A DNA stretch of 64,000 bases, from the NCBI GenBank assembly GCA_001599975.1, contig BCIO01000005.1, positions 2,714,508 through 2,778,507 of the forward strand, read 5' to 3'. Source of the stretch: Cystobasidiopsis lactophilus (lineage: Eukaryota; Basidiomycota; Agaricostilbomycetes; Agaricostilbales; Chionosphaeraceae). Each line of letters starts with the position of its first letter. Position 1 is the stretch's first letter. The position numbers were made by a program, and so were the translations under genes. The notes beneath the pieces were generated by a model that had not been told where the DNA came from, ran no database searches, and saw only the letters and a list, made by a program, of their open reading frames with translations. This document shows positions 49,120 through 64,000 of this stretch, one piece after another.

Positions 49120-51534
49120 CTAGTCAATGTTGATGATGTTGGAGTCCTCCTCGTCCGAGTCGTCCAACAAGATGGCCCCGGACGCGTCGATCTTGGCCTT
49201 TTTCATCTCCTTTTGAGCCTCGACCTGGTCCAACTCGGCGTCGTCGGCCGTGCGCTTCTTGCCGACGACTGAGAGCGGCGCCGGCTTTTCCTCCTCGGGC
49301 TGGATGGGCGGGGCGGCTTTCTTTGGCACGCTGGGGATCTTGCCCGGGATGTTGTATGAGCCTTCCGATCCAGCTGGGAGGCTATGCATGCCCATGTATT
49401 CTCAGCGTTCCGCAACTTGGAAAGTCGCAAATGTAATGGGAGCAGCGCACCTGGACACGATGAAGACGACGGATTCCAAATCGCCCTCCTCGTCGTTGAC
49501 GGTGATCAACGTGCCTTCCTTCAAGCCGACCGTCTCGAACGCGCTATCCTTGTTGTCCTCAAAGTCGGGGTCGAAGATGATGCGGCTGCCCTCGACCAGG
49601 CTGACGTCGCCTTCGAAGCCGACTTTCTCCTGCGCGACCTCGGCGACAAACTGGCCAACGGTGAGCTTGGAGATGTCGACGAGGATGGGCACATAAGGGG
49701 TCCGGCAAACGGCGCAGGCCGGGTTGGGCTTGGCCAGATCGGTGGTGGACACGGCCTTTTCGGGCGTCCGGCTGACCCAGACCATGGTGCACTCTTTCCA
49801 CGCGTCCTTGAGCACTTTAAGGCATTGCAAGACCAGGATGCCGGCCACGATGGCGTTGGTGGTGGCGATGGCGGGGATGATGTTGCCGGCCATTTCTGTG
49901 ATGCCGAGATTACGAGGTAAGACCCAGCCACAGCCTTTTTGATCTTAAGTTGGGACGGCACTCACGCTTGACGTCGAACCGGGTCTTCTTGAGGATGTCA
50001 AAGATGTGCGCTCGCAAGTTGGCGGCGGCGGTGGCAAAGTCGAGCGCGTCGTCGTCGTCTTTGTCCCAGTCCAAGGTGCCCTCGTTGGGTATGCGGGCGG
50101 TCAGGTTCTTCAAGCTGGTCAAAAACAGGTTGAACGAGTCGACGACGGTGAGCTCCCTCTGGTCCTTGATGCCAGCCGTGGTGCCGTTGGTCGAGGTGGA
50201 GGCGGTCGAGTTGGCTTCTTGGGAGAGCTCGGCGTGGGACAAGGGCTTGGGAGGCTTGCGGTGCTTCCACATGTCCTCCATGGTCAGCAGGCGCTCAATG
50301 TCCTTCTTGAAGACCTGTTCAAAGACAGGTCATCACATTTCTTTGCGAAATAAGGAAGAGCAGGTCCGAACCTTGTCGAAGACTCTCTGGCCAGCGTCGG
50401 GCGAAGCGAGCGTCTGTCGGATATCCTTGATGGCTTGGGCTTCCTTTCGCAACTCGTCCAGTTCTTCGGCTGTGCGTCACAATCCACGTGAGACCATGGA
50501 AATGTCTAATGCAGTAAGGCCACGCGCACCATTTTCGCCATCTTGGGCGGCCTTGTCCAGCTCTGCATCTCCAGTGTCGTCTTCAGGGCCAAACAATTGG
50601 CTGTGCGTTCAAAGGCGACCTCGCAATCAGCGCCTTCCTGAGGCTGATTGAGATGAGGCCGCAACAGACGCACGGAAAGAGGTAGCTCTTGGCCCAGACG
50701 ATGCAGTGGATAGGGGTGGACGGGGTGGAGCGGATGGTGCAGACAGCAAAGCCTTTGGGGACCGGCTTGCCCGTGCAGTCGTAGCACTCCACCGTGTCCT
50801 GTTCAATTTGGCCCCTCCGTCAGCTCCCTCTGTCCTCGAAATAGCTAACAGGTGGAAGGCGAATGAACCTTTTTGATGGGCTGCACTTGGCCAGAGTACC
50901 CCGCGGTGCCAGACTCGACCAAGGGCACACCAGCTGCCATGCACATCTTGTTCACATGTCGCCTGGCGTCTGTACCGCCCTCGGTCTGTGAGCTTCTAAA
51001 TCAAGCTCAAGGTGGAGGGAGAGGACGATACCCATGTTGTCGAGGGCGTTGAGGACGATGTCAAAGGTCTGGAAGTAGGCCACATCGAAGCGCGGCTCCT
51101 TGATGTTGGCGTGGATGGCGTTCATGGTGACGAGCTTGGGGTTGAACTGGGAGGCCGTCTCCTTGGCGACGAGCGACTTGGGCCTCTTGACGTGCTCCTT
51201 GCGGAACAGGAACTGCCGGTTCAAGTTGGACAGGTCGATGGTGTCCAGGTCAATCTGTGTCGCAGCCAAAGGCGTCAAACAGTGCTTGGCAGGAGCACAG
51301 GTAAACCGAGGCCACGCACCACCTCGATGTAGCCAAAGCCAACAGTGGCCAGGTTCTTGAGCAGCTCGCACCCAATCCCGCCCGCGCCCACCATCAACAC
51401 TCGAGCCTTGCCCACTTTGTCGAACAGCTCCGGCCCGAGCAGCGCCTTGGCGTACGCACTTTTGGCCCTCTCATATGAGTCTGTGTAACCTCGCGCACTA
51501 AACTTCAAGAAACGCACTAGCGACCGGCAGACAT
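49120..51534 (-). CDS. UBA2: SUMO-activating enzyme E1 subunit 2
   Basis: Catalytic half of the SUMO E1 (partner AOS1), nuclear. First exon MSA joins [20 protein letters not shown], then the ATP loop [60 protein letters not shown], zinc ligands ECYDC, and the catalytic Cys in [23 protein letters not shown]. Then come [20 protein letters not shown], the adenylation-domain end [20 protein letters not shown], the second zinc pair [12 protein letters not shown], and the ubiquitin-fold domain [20 protein letters not shown]. The acidic tail [17 protein letters not shown] has the look of a SUMO-interacting motif. Stop at 49,120-49,122. The start was chosen at 51,532-51,534 because it gives the normal MSA-DSYERAK N-terminus through a GTCGCT donor; this junction is uncertain. 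It overlaps the upstream gene's last codons. Confidence 0.92.
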
Positions 51535-54288: not shown

Positions 54289-55833
54289 TCACACCTTCCC
54301 ATCTTCCTTGTCCTTTGCCCCATCCGACTCCATCTTGGACTTGCGAAAGCTGCAAGTATAAAACCCGCCCTTGCCGTTACCCAACAAAAGAAGTGCGATC
54401 ACGCAGCCACAAATCAGGACCTCGTTGAGCTGGTGGCAAATCAACCTTAGGCGATACTTGCAAGGGCAAGACACGGACCAGGAAGCCGTATAGATCAGAA
54501 AGGATTCCAAATGGTGGAACGTCTGGCATGGTATCACGGAGAGTGGCTGTGGAGCCAAAAGGGAAAGTTAGCGGGAGAACGAGTGGGCGTGAAAGGGAGA
54601 CATGCGCAAAGCAAAGATGGTTGCTGTAAAGGCGGTCGCGAGATTGGTCCAGAACGGGTGTCCCAACACCAGAGAGCGTAACGTGACGAACAAAATGGTG
54701 AGAGATAGCAGCCACATGGTGATGACTGGGGTGAGGAGTCAGGACACTGAAGCCTTAAAGCCGGCACTGAAGTAAAATGCTCTTACTAATGAGCAGACAG
54801 AAGGCTTTCACCGCTCCAGTGCGTTGTACTTCGAGTCAAAGTTGTCAAGAGTCGCTGCGAATTTGGGAAGTGCCACCTCACATTTAAGCATCAGCACGGC
54901 GCCTTGCCCAGATTGGAAGCCCGGGCCCACGTAGGGCATGTCGTGGAGAGCTTGCTGAGTGACTGTCCAGCCTTGGATTTGGCCATAGATGTTAAGGCCG
55001 ACTAGAGGAATTGAAGCGTTTGTTTCCGCATTAATGATGGCAAAGCTGGAGTTGAATTGGTATAAATCAAACGGGTAATATATTGAAGTAGCGTCTTCGA
55101 TGGCACCAATAGATGCCGTTGTGCGATGCTGGGTGGCAAAAGTTTGAGGGATGTAGGCGCTTTCTGCGCAGTGTGAGACAGCTAGCGACCGAGAAAATGA
55201 CGCGTTTGATACCTTGAGAAGCAATAAAGTCTCCAACAGGCACCGGATTGCCATTAGCTGCAGACAAAGGTTAGCCTGTTAACTACGCCGTGGCAGACCT
55301 CGCTCACAATACGCTCTCGAGCTGACCGTCAGCATCCCGCCTGATACCGATTGTGGCGTACTTGACTGCATTTGCCTATTTAGAGAACAATCGGCATGGA
55401 AACAAAGAGAGAAGCCCACATAGGATCCCGAGCCCAGCCAAAACCAAAACACTGTGCACGTCTTGACTTTGACGTCCATCTCGCTGATCTGTCCGACCAA
55501 AATAATGCCATCCTGAATCGCATCTACGCTGACCCATCTCGTCGGTGGCGAGCGCCTTTGCTCGGCCAGAGCCGATAGAAGGGAGGCCAACAACGATCCC
55601 ACGACAAGTGCGGCCACGAAAAGCAAGATGCCTGATCCGGAAACGGTTCAAGTGCCGATATAACGCCCACGTGAATCAGATGGCCTACAGACGCGCTTCT
55701 TGCGCTGCAGAAAGGCCAGACAGCCTCGCCAGAGAGAGAAAGATTTAGCGCCGTCGCCGACTTTGTCTTCTCCTTTGTCAAGACGGCCGATTAATGAGGG
55801 CGTCTTTTCGCTGTTACTATCCGCATTGCTCAT
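54289..55833 (-). CDS. DUF4436 membrane protein, copy A
   Basis: Integral membrane protein of unknown function, spliced through many short introns. N-terminal cytosolic part from ATG 55,833: MSNADSNSEKTPSLIGRLDK and LQRKKRV, then membrane segment CILLFVAALVVGSLLASLL. The lumenal part contains RRSPPTRWVSVDAIQDGIIL, TCTVFWFWLGSGS, TPQSVSGGMLTVSSRAY, NGNPVPVGDFIASQ, IPQTFATQHRTTASIGAIE, YYPFDLYQFNSSFAIINAE, GLNIYGQIQGWTVTQQAL and HDMPYVGPGFQSGQGAVL. Several C-terminal membrane segments follow, with the family signature LRDTMPDVPPFGILSDLYGF and ending FRKSKMESDGAKDKEDGKV at 54,289. The paralogue B follows in tandem. The family name is from memory of the RxxMPDxPPxG signature. Confidence 0.75.
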
Positions 55834-56174
55834 CTAGAGTGATTGCTCGTCGTCGAAGCAAGGCCAAGCAAGCCCGGTCGGAGTTGGTCGCGGCGCAGAT
55901 AGTAAACAGATCGCCATCTTCAAGTTGGCTTCTGGCGCTTCTCTCTTTGTATCAACCGTGTCGCGTAGCTGTAAGCATGTACTATGAACGGCAAAAGCAG
56001 CGAGCAACGACATAAGGAGGCAACCAAAGAAGCCGTTGGTTTTCGTCGTTTGCGCGCGGCCCAGTGTGGCAAAAATTCGAGTGTCTCGCTTCTTGCCTCT
56101 GACAACTGGTGGTACCAATAGCAAGTATTCTGGTCAAAAGTCCCAGAGCTCCTCGTATCCCAGAGCTAGCAGCG
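55834..56174. promoter_or_regulatory. Gap between the two DUF4436 genes
   Basis: About 340 bases between the stop of copy B and the start of copy A, both on the minus strand. It should hold the promoter of copy A. No strong element recognised. Confidence 0.35.
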
Positions 56175-57786
56175 TCACACTTGCGCCTCCTTCGCCTTCT
56201 TTCGCTTGATCCTCTCGGATTTGCGAGTATGGCTGGCGCGAAACCCGCCTTGCCCGTTGTTCAATAGGACGAGCGCGAGCAAGCAGCTAGAAAGGAGCAA
56301 GGCGTCGACGCCGGAACAATCAGCAAGGGGGACAAGGCCGGAAAATGGGACACCCAAGAAAGTACACGCACGCAGACACAATTACTTCGTTAACGAGGAA
56401 ACCATAGACGTCACTTTGAAAGCCAAAGGGGGGAACATCCGGCATCGTGTTGCGTAGCGCCGGAAGTGCGAAGAGCATCGTGGAAAAAACCGAAATCAGG
56501 GGCGACCAGAATGAGCCGCCTAGAGCCAGAACGCTCAAGGTATTGAAGAGCACCGCAAGGCTGATGCACCACATAAGGATCACTGTAGCAAACCTGTAAG
56601 CGTGCGGCTCCGACACTGGCTGAGATATTGTGCATGGTAAAGTTGCTTACCGATGACGATGCAAAACGCTCGAACCACTGCCGTTCGTTGCACTGTGTGG
56701 CGAACAGTTAGAATGCTAGACCAATCTCGAGTGAAGCTATGTCCTCACATGTCAAGAGGAGCACTGTTCCTTCCTCAGAGTTGAAGTTTGGCCCAACGTA
56801 AGGCAAACCGTGAAGAGATTGTTGCGTTACTAGCCAACCTTGGACCCAATGTTAGGCAAGCCGTGACGAGATTGTTGTGTTACTAGCCACCTTGAATTTG
56901 ACCAAAAATATTGACTCCAACGAGCGGAAGAGAGGCGTTTGTGTCCGAATTGATGACCGCAAAGCTCGAATTCAGGCCGTAGACGTCAAAAGGGTAGTAA
57001 ATGGACGCTGCCCCTTCGATTGCGTTCATGGAAGCAGACGTCCGATGCTGGGTCAAGAAAGTCTGAGGCACATAATCGCTCTCTGTGCGTTCGTGGGCCA
57101 CACCTGCCGAGGGAAAGAAGTGCAAATGGCTTACCGTGCGAGACCACAAAATCGCCAACAGGTATCGAGTTGCCATCATCTGCTGTAGATTTAGAACATT
57201 ATGTAACAGAAGCTCCAAAGTGCGCACAAAACGCTGTGGCGCTGACTGCAAGCGCTCCGCCCGTCACCGAGTCAGGGGCGTTCGACTACAAGCGCGCTTC
57301 AGAGTCTGTTCCAGAGCGATTGGGAGGAAGAAACTTACAAGGGTACCTGAACCTAACCAAAACCAGGAGATCGTGCAGCTCTTGGCCCGGATATTGATGT
57401 CCGCCACCTGTCCTACCAGAACGACGCCGTCCTGGATCGCATCAACATTTTCCCAGCGCGTTGGCGGCGACCTTCGCTGTTCCGATTGAAAAGAAAGGAA
57501 GGAAGCCAGGACAGAGCACACAATCAGGATGATAGCGATAAGTGAAACGATCCCTTCATTTGTGTGGCGAGGTGAGCTGCACACTCTGCGATAGCTCTCG
57601 GGTACCCAGCTCACAGACACGTTTCTTTCGATGGATGAATCGGACGTGATAGGGCAGATATGTCGCCTTGCGGCCCTCGGTCACGTTCTCGGGCTGGTCA
57701 GGATTGGCCAGCGTCAGCGTTGAATCGTGGTTGCTTGCGTGTGTCACTTCCTCCTCCTCAGAGTCGCGTTGGTGGTCTTTCATCAT
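56175..57786 (-). CDS. DUF4436 membrane protein, copy B
   Basis: Tandem paralogue of copy A with the same order of segments: MMKDHQRDSEEEEVTHASNH, FIHRKKRV, membrane segment IVSLIAIILIVCSVLASFL, RRSPPTRWENVDAIQDGVVL, SCTISWFWLGSGT, DDGNSIPVGDFVVSH, VPQTFLTQHRTSASMNAIE, YYPFDVYGLNSSFAVINSD, GVNIFGQIQG, WLVTQQSLHGLPYVGPNF, then C-terminal membrane segments with ALRNTMPDVPPFGFQSDVYG and the tail ...RKSERIKRKKAKEAQV. The join between QIQG and WLVTQQ needs a 52-base intron (56,839-56,890) absent from copy A; that intron is one half of a tandem duplication. The start was taken at the first in-frame ATG (57,784-57,786), giving a cytosolic acidic N-terminus. All other exons are open and aligned with copy A, so it looks functional. 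Confidence 0.75.
56789..56890 (-). repeat. Tandem duplication of about 50 bp, one copy acting as an intron
   Basis: On the minus strand two adjacent copies begin AAGGTGGCTAGTAACACAAC and AAGGTTGGCTAGTAACGCAA and stay alike through GGCTTGCCTAACATTGGG and GGTTTGCCTTACGTTGGG. They differ at about eight positions including one indel. The left-hand copy has GT at its start, AG at its end and a CTAAC about ten bases before the AG. Confidence 0.85.
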
Positions 57787-63267: not shown

Positions 63268-63427
63268 CGCTGCACGGGTTGACGAGCAACTTCGAGGCGG
63301 ACATGAGCGCTGATTTGGATGCAGTGGTAGGCGCCCTCTATCGCTGTCACAGACATTCTTCTGACGTTTATCGTGCCTGCAGACGGCCGCTATAGCGCCA
63401 GACTCGCATGTCAGGCCAGGTTCGTAG

Positions 63428-64000
63428 CTCGCCTCCGCTTCAGTCAGCTCTGGCCTCGACCTGACAGATCGCCTCTTGACAGACGCCAAAACGCAGCGTT
63501 ATGATAGGCAGTTGAGGTAATGATCTTGTCATTAGTATGGCTCCCATTCAGCAGTGCTCAAAGCTGGCGATAGGTTGTGGGCGGCGGCGGGCCAGACGGC
63601 GCTCGAGAACGCCAACATCCTCGTCGTCAATGGCTCTCCCACGGCCACGCAACTGCTCAAGAACTTGGTCTTGCCTGGTGCGCGTGCTCTCATTCATACT
63701 TCTACCTGACCAAGGGCTCACAAGAGCGACGTCGCAGGCATCGGCTCCTTCACCATCCTGGATGACAAGACGGTCTCTGAGGCCGACATCGGTGCCAACT
63801 TCTTCCTTACCACCGAGTCCTTGGGGCACAAGCGGGCCGAGCAACAAGTCCCATTGCTCACCGAGCTCAACGACAGCGTCAAAGGCCACGCTCTGCTCCA
63901 GGACCTCGCCACCTTCCTCGCTTCCTCCCCGACCGCCTTGTCGCCCTACAACCTCGTCATCTCCGTCGATGCTCCCACGGCCGACACGTTGAAGCTGGCC
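63428..64000 (+). CDS. ULA1: NEDD8-activating enzyme E1 regulatory subunit (partial)
   Basis: Regulatory, catalytic-Cys-less half of the NEDD8 E1 (APPBP1/NAE1/ULA1), partner of UBA3. The first visible exon ends ...[13 protein letters not shown]. An intron (about 63,517-63,573) then joins [36 protein letters not shown] second intron leads to [40 protein letters not shown] and [20 protein letters not shown], and the gene runs off the right edge. RYDRQLRLW and [16 protein letters not shown] are diagnostic of the family, and [14 protein letters not shown] separates it from AOS1. The initiator Met lies upstream of 63,428 in an exon I could not fix; MSADLDAV at 63,304 is a candidate. Divergent from URB1. 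Confidence 0.9.

Follow-up and report, generated by a model that had tools for sequence, protein, structure and literature searches.

The window (the whole stretch of DNA that was analysed, 64,000 nt long) carries two genes of the DUF4436 family, A and B, which are adjacent neighbours on the minus strand. Gene A (54289-55833) is modelled with 370 aa and eight introns, and gene B (56175-57786) with 379 aa and eight introns, including the 52 nt at 56839-56890 that are the subject of this report; the borders were set from the reading frame, the splice signals and the A-B alignment, and were chosen with an open frame in mind. The two proteins align with few gaps, mostly on the N-terminal side and one ahead of the C-terminus, and six introns are common to both genes, in the same phase and at matching positions. 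Two introns are found only in A (54547-54605 and 54430-54478) and two only in B (56287-56371 and the candidate, 56839-56890). The first of these, 54547-54605 (minus strand), is apparently a GC-AG intron (TGC/GCATGT...CCACAG) absent from B, and with it removed the A peptide reads FALPTLRDTMPDVPPFG, matching B. Neither 54430-54478 nor 56287-56371 has a recognisable adjacent source (local similarity to the flank 9 and 11, on the scale used below).

Searches of the genome (22.1 Mb in 8 contigs), which we take to be that of a basidiomycete-type fungus, with the A exon frame gave three matches, every one at the A/B locus, and with the DUF4436 Pfam family a single match, within B; these searches were run exon by exon, so divergent DUF4436 copies could escape them. 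Protein searches found no homologue of spliced B (an early 385-aa model, 8000 candidates scored), of residues 175-260 of the 379-aa B model (197 candidates) or of the 156-aa A frame (22 candidates). Although the frames of A and B (54289-57786, minus strand) are open, their coding scores are close to zero under a model trained on the neighbourhood, and an ab initio gene finder therefore misses both genes; low expression or unusual codon usage is perhaps the cause. On either side the pair is flanked by predicted genes, about 12 kb apart, at 49123-51534 (minus strand) and 63303-64000 (plus strand), which, from the resemblance of their N-termini, may encode the UBA2 and AOS1 subunits of the SUMO E1 enzyme.

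A tandem duplication inside a coding exon of gene B

In gene B, a 52-nt segment occurs twice in tandem after the codons for QIQG. The preliminary description had reported a tandem repeat of 50 bases here; the repeat and its location hold, while the length has to be corrected. A gapless comparison does yield copies of 50 nt (56787-56836 and 56840-56889, 86% identical), but the unit is 52 nt long once gaps are allowed, and the two copies then differ by five substitutions and two single-base indels, copy 1 having lost one T and gained one T relative to copy 2. Both 52-nt copies start with CAAGGT, so that the duplicated piece is an AGGT-containing exonic segment. Copy 2 (56787-56838, minus strand), the one retained as coding, encodes (G)WLVTQQSLHGLPYVGP. 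Beyond its missing T, copy 1 still reads WLVTQQSRHGLPNIG where copy 2 reads WLVTQQSLHGLPYVG, which indicates that copy 1 was derived from coding sequence.

The resemblance of the candidate segment to its flank is exceptional for the region. We trained a gene finder on the window together with the 200 kb upstream of it, a region rich in introns, which gave 101 predicted genes with 690 introns; the local similarity of these introns to their flanks has a median of 9, a 99th percentile of 13 and a maximum of 18, compared with 37 for the candidate segment, and the remaining 15 introns of the A/B pair reach at most 11. When the same 264 kb were scanned for tandemly duplicated segments (80% identity or more over 36 columns, with periods of 25-150 nt), two were found, that of gene B included. 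The other one (L020:1605-1651; period 28, best identity 89%) lies outside predicted coding sequence. The highest flank similarity among the 690 predicted introns (18, upstream) belongs to L017:6605-6667 (minus strand), which could be an older duplication-born intron or a product of chance.

A search of the 22.1-Mb genome with the 191-nt region of B, in which only the best candidates are scored, matched that region itself and nothing else. Among the best candidates scored, an introner-like or other mobile element thus finds no support.

The duplication can be placed relative to the divergence of the two genes. Third codon positions differ between A and B at 115 of 178 codons 5' of the site and at 92 of 151 codons 3' of it, whereas copy 1 and copy 2 differ at about 10% of bases (the five substitutions over the unit). 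Judged from these divergences, the duplication is not fresh, though it is far younger than the A-B split.

Removal of the first copy restores the frame

Copy 1 coincides with a candidate phase-1 intron of 52 nt (56839-56890, minus strand; AAG/GTGGCT...CCTAACATTGGGTCCAAG/GT). The exon 5' of it, which ends in QIQG, spans 56891-57082 and is preceded by the next intron at 57083-57134; the exon 3' of it, which includes copy 2, spans 56749-56838 in the gene B model. If the 52 nt are kept, the frame continues as QIQGG and then meets two stops. If they are removed, B reads VGVNIFGQIQG/WLVTQQSLHGLPYVGP where A reads VGLNIYGQIQGWTVTQQALHDMPYVGP, and the coding sequence is restored exactly, with QIQG/WLVTQQSLHGLPYVG in B against QIQGWTVTQQALHDMPYVG in A. 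In A the corresponding peptide, QIQGWTVTQQ, is encoded without interruption in the exon at 54882-55163. Translation thus bears out the earlier claim that taking out copy 1 as a 52-base GT-AG intron brings back an A-like frame and peptide, and it is equally true that the duplicated AGGT supplies both splice borders: CAAGGT opens each copy, and removal from AG/GT to AG/GT is exact. Of 22 in-frame GT-AG or GC-AG options of at least 38 nt, the 15 listed include only one that gives the exact peptide, the 52-nt one. A 127-nt intron covering the greater part of the two copies (56764-56890) was also tried; its signal sum is higher (5.72 vs 2.73 for the 52-nt intron), but it was set aside on the total including length (-4.20 vs -0.43) and would remove 25 residues.

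Splice signals of the candidate intron

The candidate is ordinary in its GT-AG type, its length (52 nt; the 5th percentile of the predicted introns is 49 and the median 58) and its branch distance. The putative branch site lies in a region reading GCCTAAC (approximately 56848-56857, minus strand), with its A 13 nt from the end of the intron, and 13 and 14 nt are the commonest distances among the 597 introns whose branch site matches well. The signals themselves are weak for this genome. Against the 690 predicted introns, whose commonest donors are GTGAGC, GTGAGT and GTGCGT and whose acceptors are CAG (540), TAG (80), AAG (67) and GAG (3), the candidate scores 2.31 for the donor (6th percentile), 1.76 for the acceptor (5th) and, with distance weighting, -0.56 for the branch site (9th) and 3.52 for the sum (1.6th), percentiles that exaggerate its weakness since the yardstick introns were partly found through their own signals. 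Among the 16 introns of A and B, the other 15 of which were placed by frame and homology, it has the lowest signal (percentile 1.2; the others lie between 2.8 and 85.7). These weak signals suggest that splicing of 56839-56890 is perhaps incomplete.

The preliminary description had further noted CTAAC as a fungal branch-site match in copy 1 where copy 2 has CTTAC, and had proposed that it was selected after the duplication. The copies do differ in this way, yet CTAAC is not one of the preferred motifs here: most branch motifs in this region of the genome are CTGAN or CTCAN (led by CTGAC with 121 introns, CTCAA with 75, CTGAT with 70 and CTCAC with 67), and CTAAC is absent from the 12 commonest among the 597 introns. 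Nor did selection for a better intron find support. From the unmutated duplicate to the present sequence the distance-weighted branch score rose from -1.12 to -0.56, while the scores of the acceptor (2.33 to 1.76) and of the donor (4.10 to 2.31) dropped, the latter because the deletion of a T turned GTTGGC into GTGGCT with loss of the G at +5. The sum fell from 5.31 to 3.52 (from 5.29 to 2.73 without branch distance, in the same direction), and 73% of 20,000 random mutants with an equal number of changes score at least as high as the present sequence (81% unweighted), so that an improvement is not shown.

The unmutated duplicate would have made a reasonable intron, at the 3.8th percentile of the predicted introns on the sum and at the 31st for the donor. 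When 52-nt duplications at AGGT were simulated in predicted coding sequence, 21 of 349 reached the score of the unmutated duplicate and 62 of 349 that of the present one. An AGGT is present in 2321 of 21403 sampled 52-nt coding windows, so that a random duplication of such a length would mostly be unable to make an intron in this way. The history of the signal fits a birth in one step followed by drift.

Given a small per-base coding bonus, the gene finder, which uses no knowledge of A or of the protein family, placed an intron at exactly 56839-56890 at all four bonus levels. This support is modest, since neither A nor B is called without the bonus, several other A/B borders disagree with our gene models when it is applied, and the change of frame forces some placement. 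Forbidding introns costs the gene finder only 0.5 nats at the candidate, since it can turn to a near-equivalent TAG acceptor 9 nt downstream; among the seven remaining introns of B the penalty is 3.2-8.5 nats for five and 0.0-0.3 for two.

Decay of the first copy and the state of gene B

Two stops in the unspliced reading could also mean that B is a pseudogene or a truncated gene, its frame broken by the duplication, the 52 bases retained and the protein ending at QIQGG. The weakness of the signals is compatible with this, as the candidate lies inside the score range covered by exon decoys (a score as high is reached by 755 of 8448 GT-AG pairs from within predicted exons, or by 14.1% when branch distance is left out), and the gene finder without bonus misses B, although it misses A likewise. 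The differences between the two copies point the other way. Polarised with A, five of the seven fall in copy 1, one in copy 2 and one is ambiguous; the copy 2 change is at a synonymous third position, a class that differs between A and B at most codons, and all five differences that alter the frame or the protein are in copy 1 (one-sided probability 1/32 for the five altering changes, 7/64 for all six polarised ones). Altering decay limited to copy 1 is what would be expected if copy 1 were intronic and copy 2 coding. An unspliced gene would keep copy 1 in frame and leave copy 2 free, the opposite of the observed pattern.

The rest of the gene also argues against a dead B. The 379-aa B frame holds no further disabling lesion, on borders picked with the frame in mind. 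If B had lost its function at the time of the duplication, its other 1088 coding nt should by now hold about 21 indels and about 2 stops (point estimates), and the probability that a B neutral since then would show neither a frameshift or stop nor the loss of a splice dinucleotide outside the site is 1.6e-4. This test rests mainly on the two 1-nt indels; with one indel counted and splice sites omitted the probability is 0.005, and with stops alone it is 0.19. The predicted exons 3' of the site score better in frame than in either of the two other frames in four of four cases (the last intron having an earlier border in this test), though only narrowly so for a 42-nt exon. Finally, a Pfam search of B cut at the stop met without splicing gives no DUF4436 match, while B minus the 52 nt scores 78.1 bits, compared with 66.6 for A. 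We therefore consider a pseudogene unlikely, and an intron of duplication origin remains the preferred reading of the segment.

Alternative borders and other origins

The TAG acceptor 9 nt downstream offers a variant of the same birth, in which the main intron is 61 nt long (56830-56890) and G-W-L is lost, or in which both acceptors are used. The nine additional nt are GTTGGCTAG (56830-56838, minus strand). The resulting frame is open and in register, the gene finder rates this choice only 0.5 nats worse, and TAG accounts for 80 and AAG for 67 of the 690 predicted acceptors. At the same time, its signal sum is lower (1.63 vs 2.73), G and W of the residues removed are identical in A, and the Pfam score drops to 68.9 from 78.1 bits, which together make this variant quite improbable.

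Near-identical tandem copies can in general arise from assembly or sequencing errors, but five substitutions and two indels separate these copies, with the altering ones confined to one of them, so misassembly is extremely improbable here. There is hardly more to be said for an ancestral intron lost from A, with its exon similarity secondary: three further differences in intron position show that loss and gain did occur in the pair, but the segment is a recognisable copy of the adjoining exon, relic codons WLVTQQSRHGLPNIG included, and has diverged from it far less than A has from B.

Discussion

Our analysis suggests that 56839-56890 of gene B is probably an intron born by tandem duplication. 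This is the best-supported explanation because the frame is restored exactly, the source adjoins the intron, A lacks the intron, B is otherwise intact and the frame- or protein-altering decay is confined to copy 1. We infer that the intron was gained in the lineage of B and that the spliceosome excises the segment in the cell, completely or in part. After A and B had separated, a 52-nt piece of exon encoding (QIQ)GWLVTQQSLHGLPYVGP would have been tandemly duplicated in B. As the piece carries CAAGGT, the 5' splice site would have been furnished by the GT of copy 1, and the 3' splice site by the AG that stands ahead of the GT of copy 2. Copy 1 would then be removed by the spliceosome as a 52-nt phase-1 intron, leaving copy 2 to encode an unchanged protein. 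Any unspliced B messages, with QIQGG and two stops, might be targeted by nonsense-mediated decay, provided that the fungus has this pathway.

A possible, though doubtful, extension is that we see a newborn, intermediate intron, one that was serviceable at the moment of duplication and then drifted weaker, the T deletion having put two stops immediately behind the donor, which would cause unspliced messages to be discarded. Such an intron may have two in-frame 3' splice sites in competition, 9 nt apart and both of coding origin. If true, this would be a natural snapshot of intron birth buffered by quality control.

Birth by duplication of an AGGT-containing segment is an established route. The tandem genomic duplication model goes back to Rogers 1989, with ATP2A1 as a case (Hellsten 2011; both as given in PMC4974935 and PMC3443670). 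A 2012 review (PMC3443670) counts 188 unambiguous events of intron gain by tandem duplication, with one in vivo demonstration, and fission-yeast, potato and vertebrate cases have been described, so the rarity claimed for such cases in the preliminary description was overstated. For most gained introns, according to PMC4974935 and PMC3629103, the source sequence is not found. Gene B resembles the cases under the model in that an AGGT-containing exonic segment was doubled, the borders would come from the GT of the first copy and the AG of the second, and the protein would be unchanged, a precise gain. It differs from them in that its signals are weak for its genome and that the 52-nt unit by itself has the length of an intron (genome median 58 nt).

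Among fungi, the closest likeness is with SPOG_01682 and SOCG_00815 of fission yeast (PMC3629103), where introns likewise lie within tandem exonic repeats and their source can be read; those units are 24 nt long, occur in several copies and have EST support, whereas B shows one 52-nt duplication. The proto-splice site of fission yeast is given as AGGC in PMC3629103 and as AGGT in PMC4974935. In CNN00420 of Cryptococcus (PMC2395259), duplication of repeats also produced new introns in a fungal gene, but there the repeats multiplied already held a full intron, while the B intron would come from coding sequence. The second intron of the potato RdRp gene (PMC4974935) is, like that of B, recent, made by tandem duplication and readable in both copies; its duplication spanned an existing intron-exon border and so inherited an acceptor and a branch site, in contrast to the wholly exonic segment of B. 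In Drosophila, novel introns are likewise marked by weaker splice sites and a greater number of stops (PMC2809761); for these NMD-assisted introns the sources were mostly not known, while the source of the B intron adjoins it.

No title or abstract among the matches listed in a search of the open literature names the B case; DUF4436 is mentioned in one of the papers listed. It would leave the accepted mechanism of intron gain unchanged, and is a clear natural example of a mechanism that specialists already accept. Because the source, the two copies and a tandem paralogue without the interruption all lie within about 3.5 kb, the passage from exon to intron can be traced base by base, and as a single exonic duplication of about 50 nt already gives an intron of normal length here, fungi with short introns may gain introns in few steps. 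The probable B intron is a new example of gain by an already established route, one in which readability is unusually complete and the splice signals are unusually weak.
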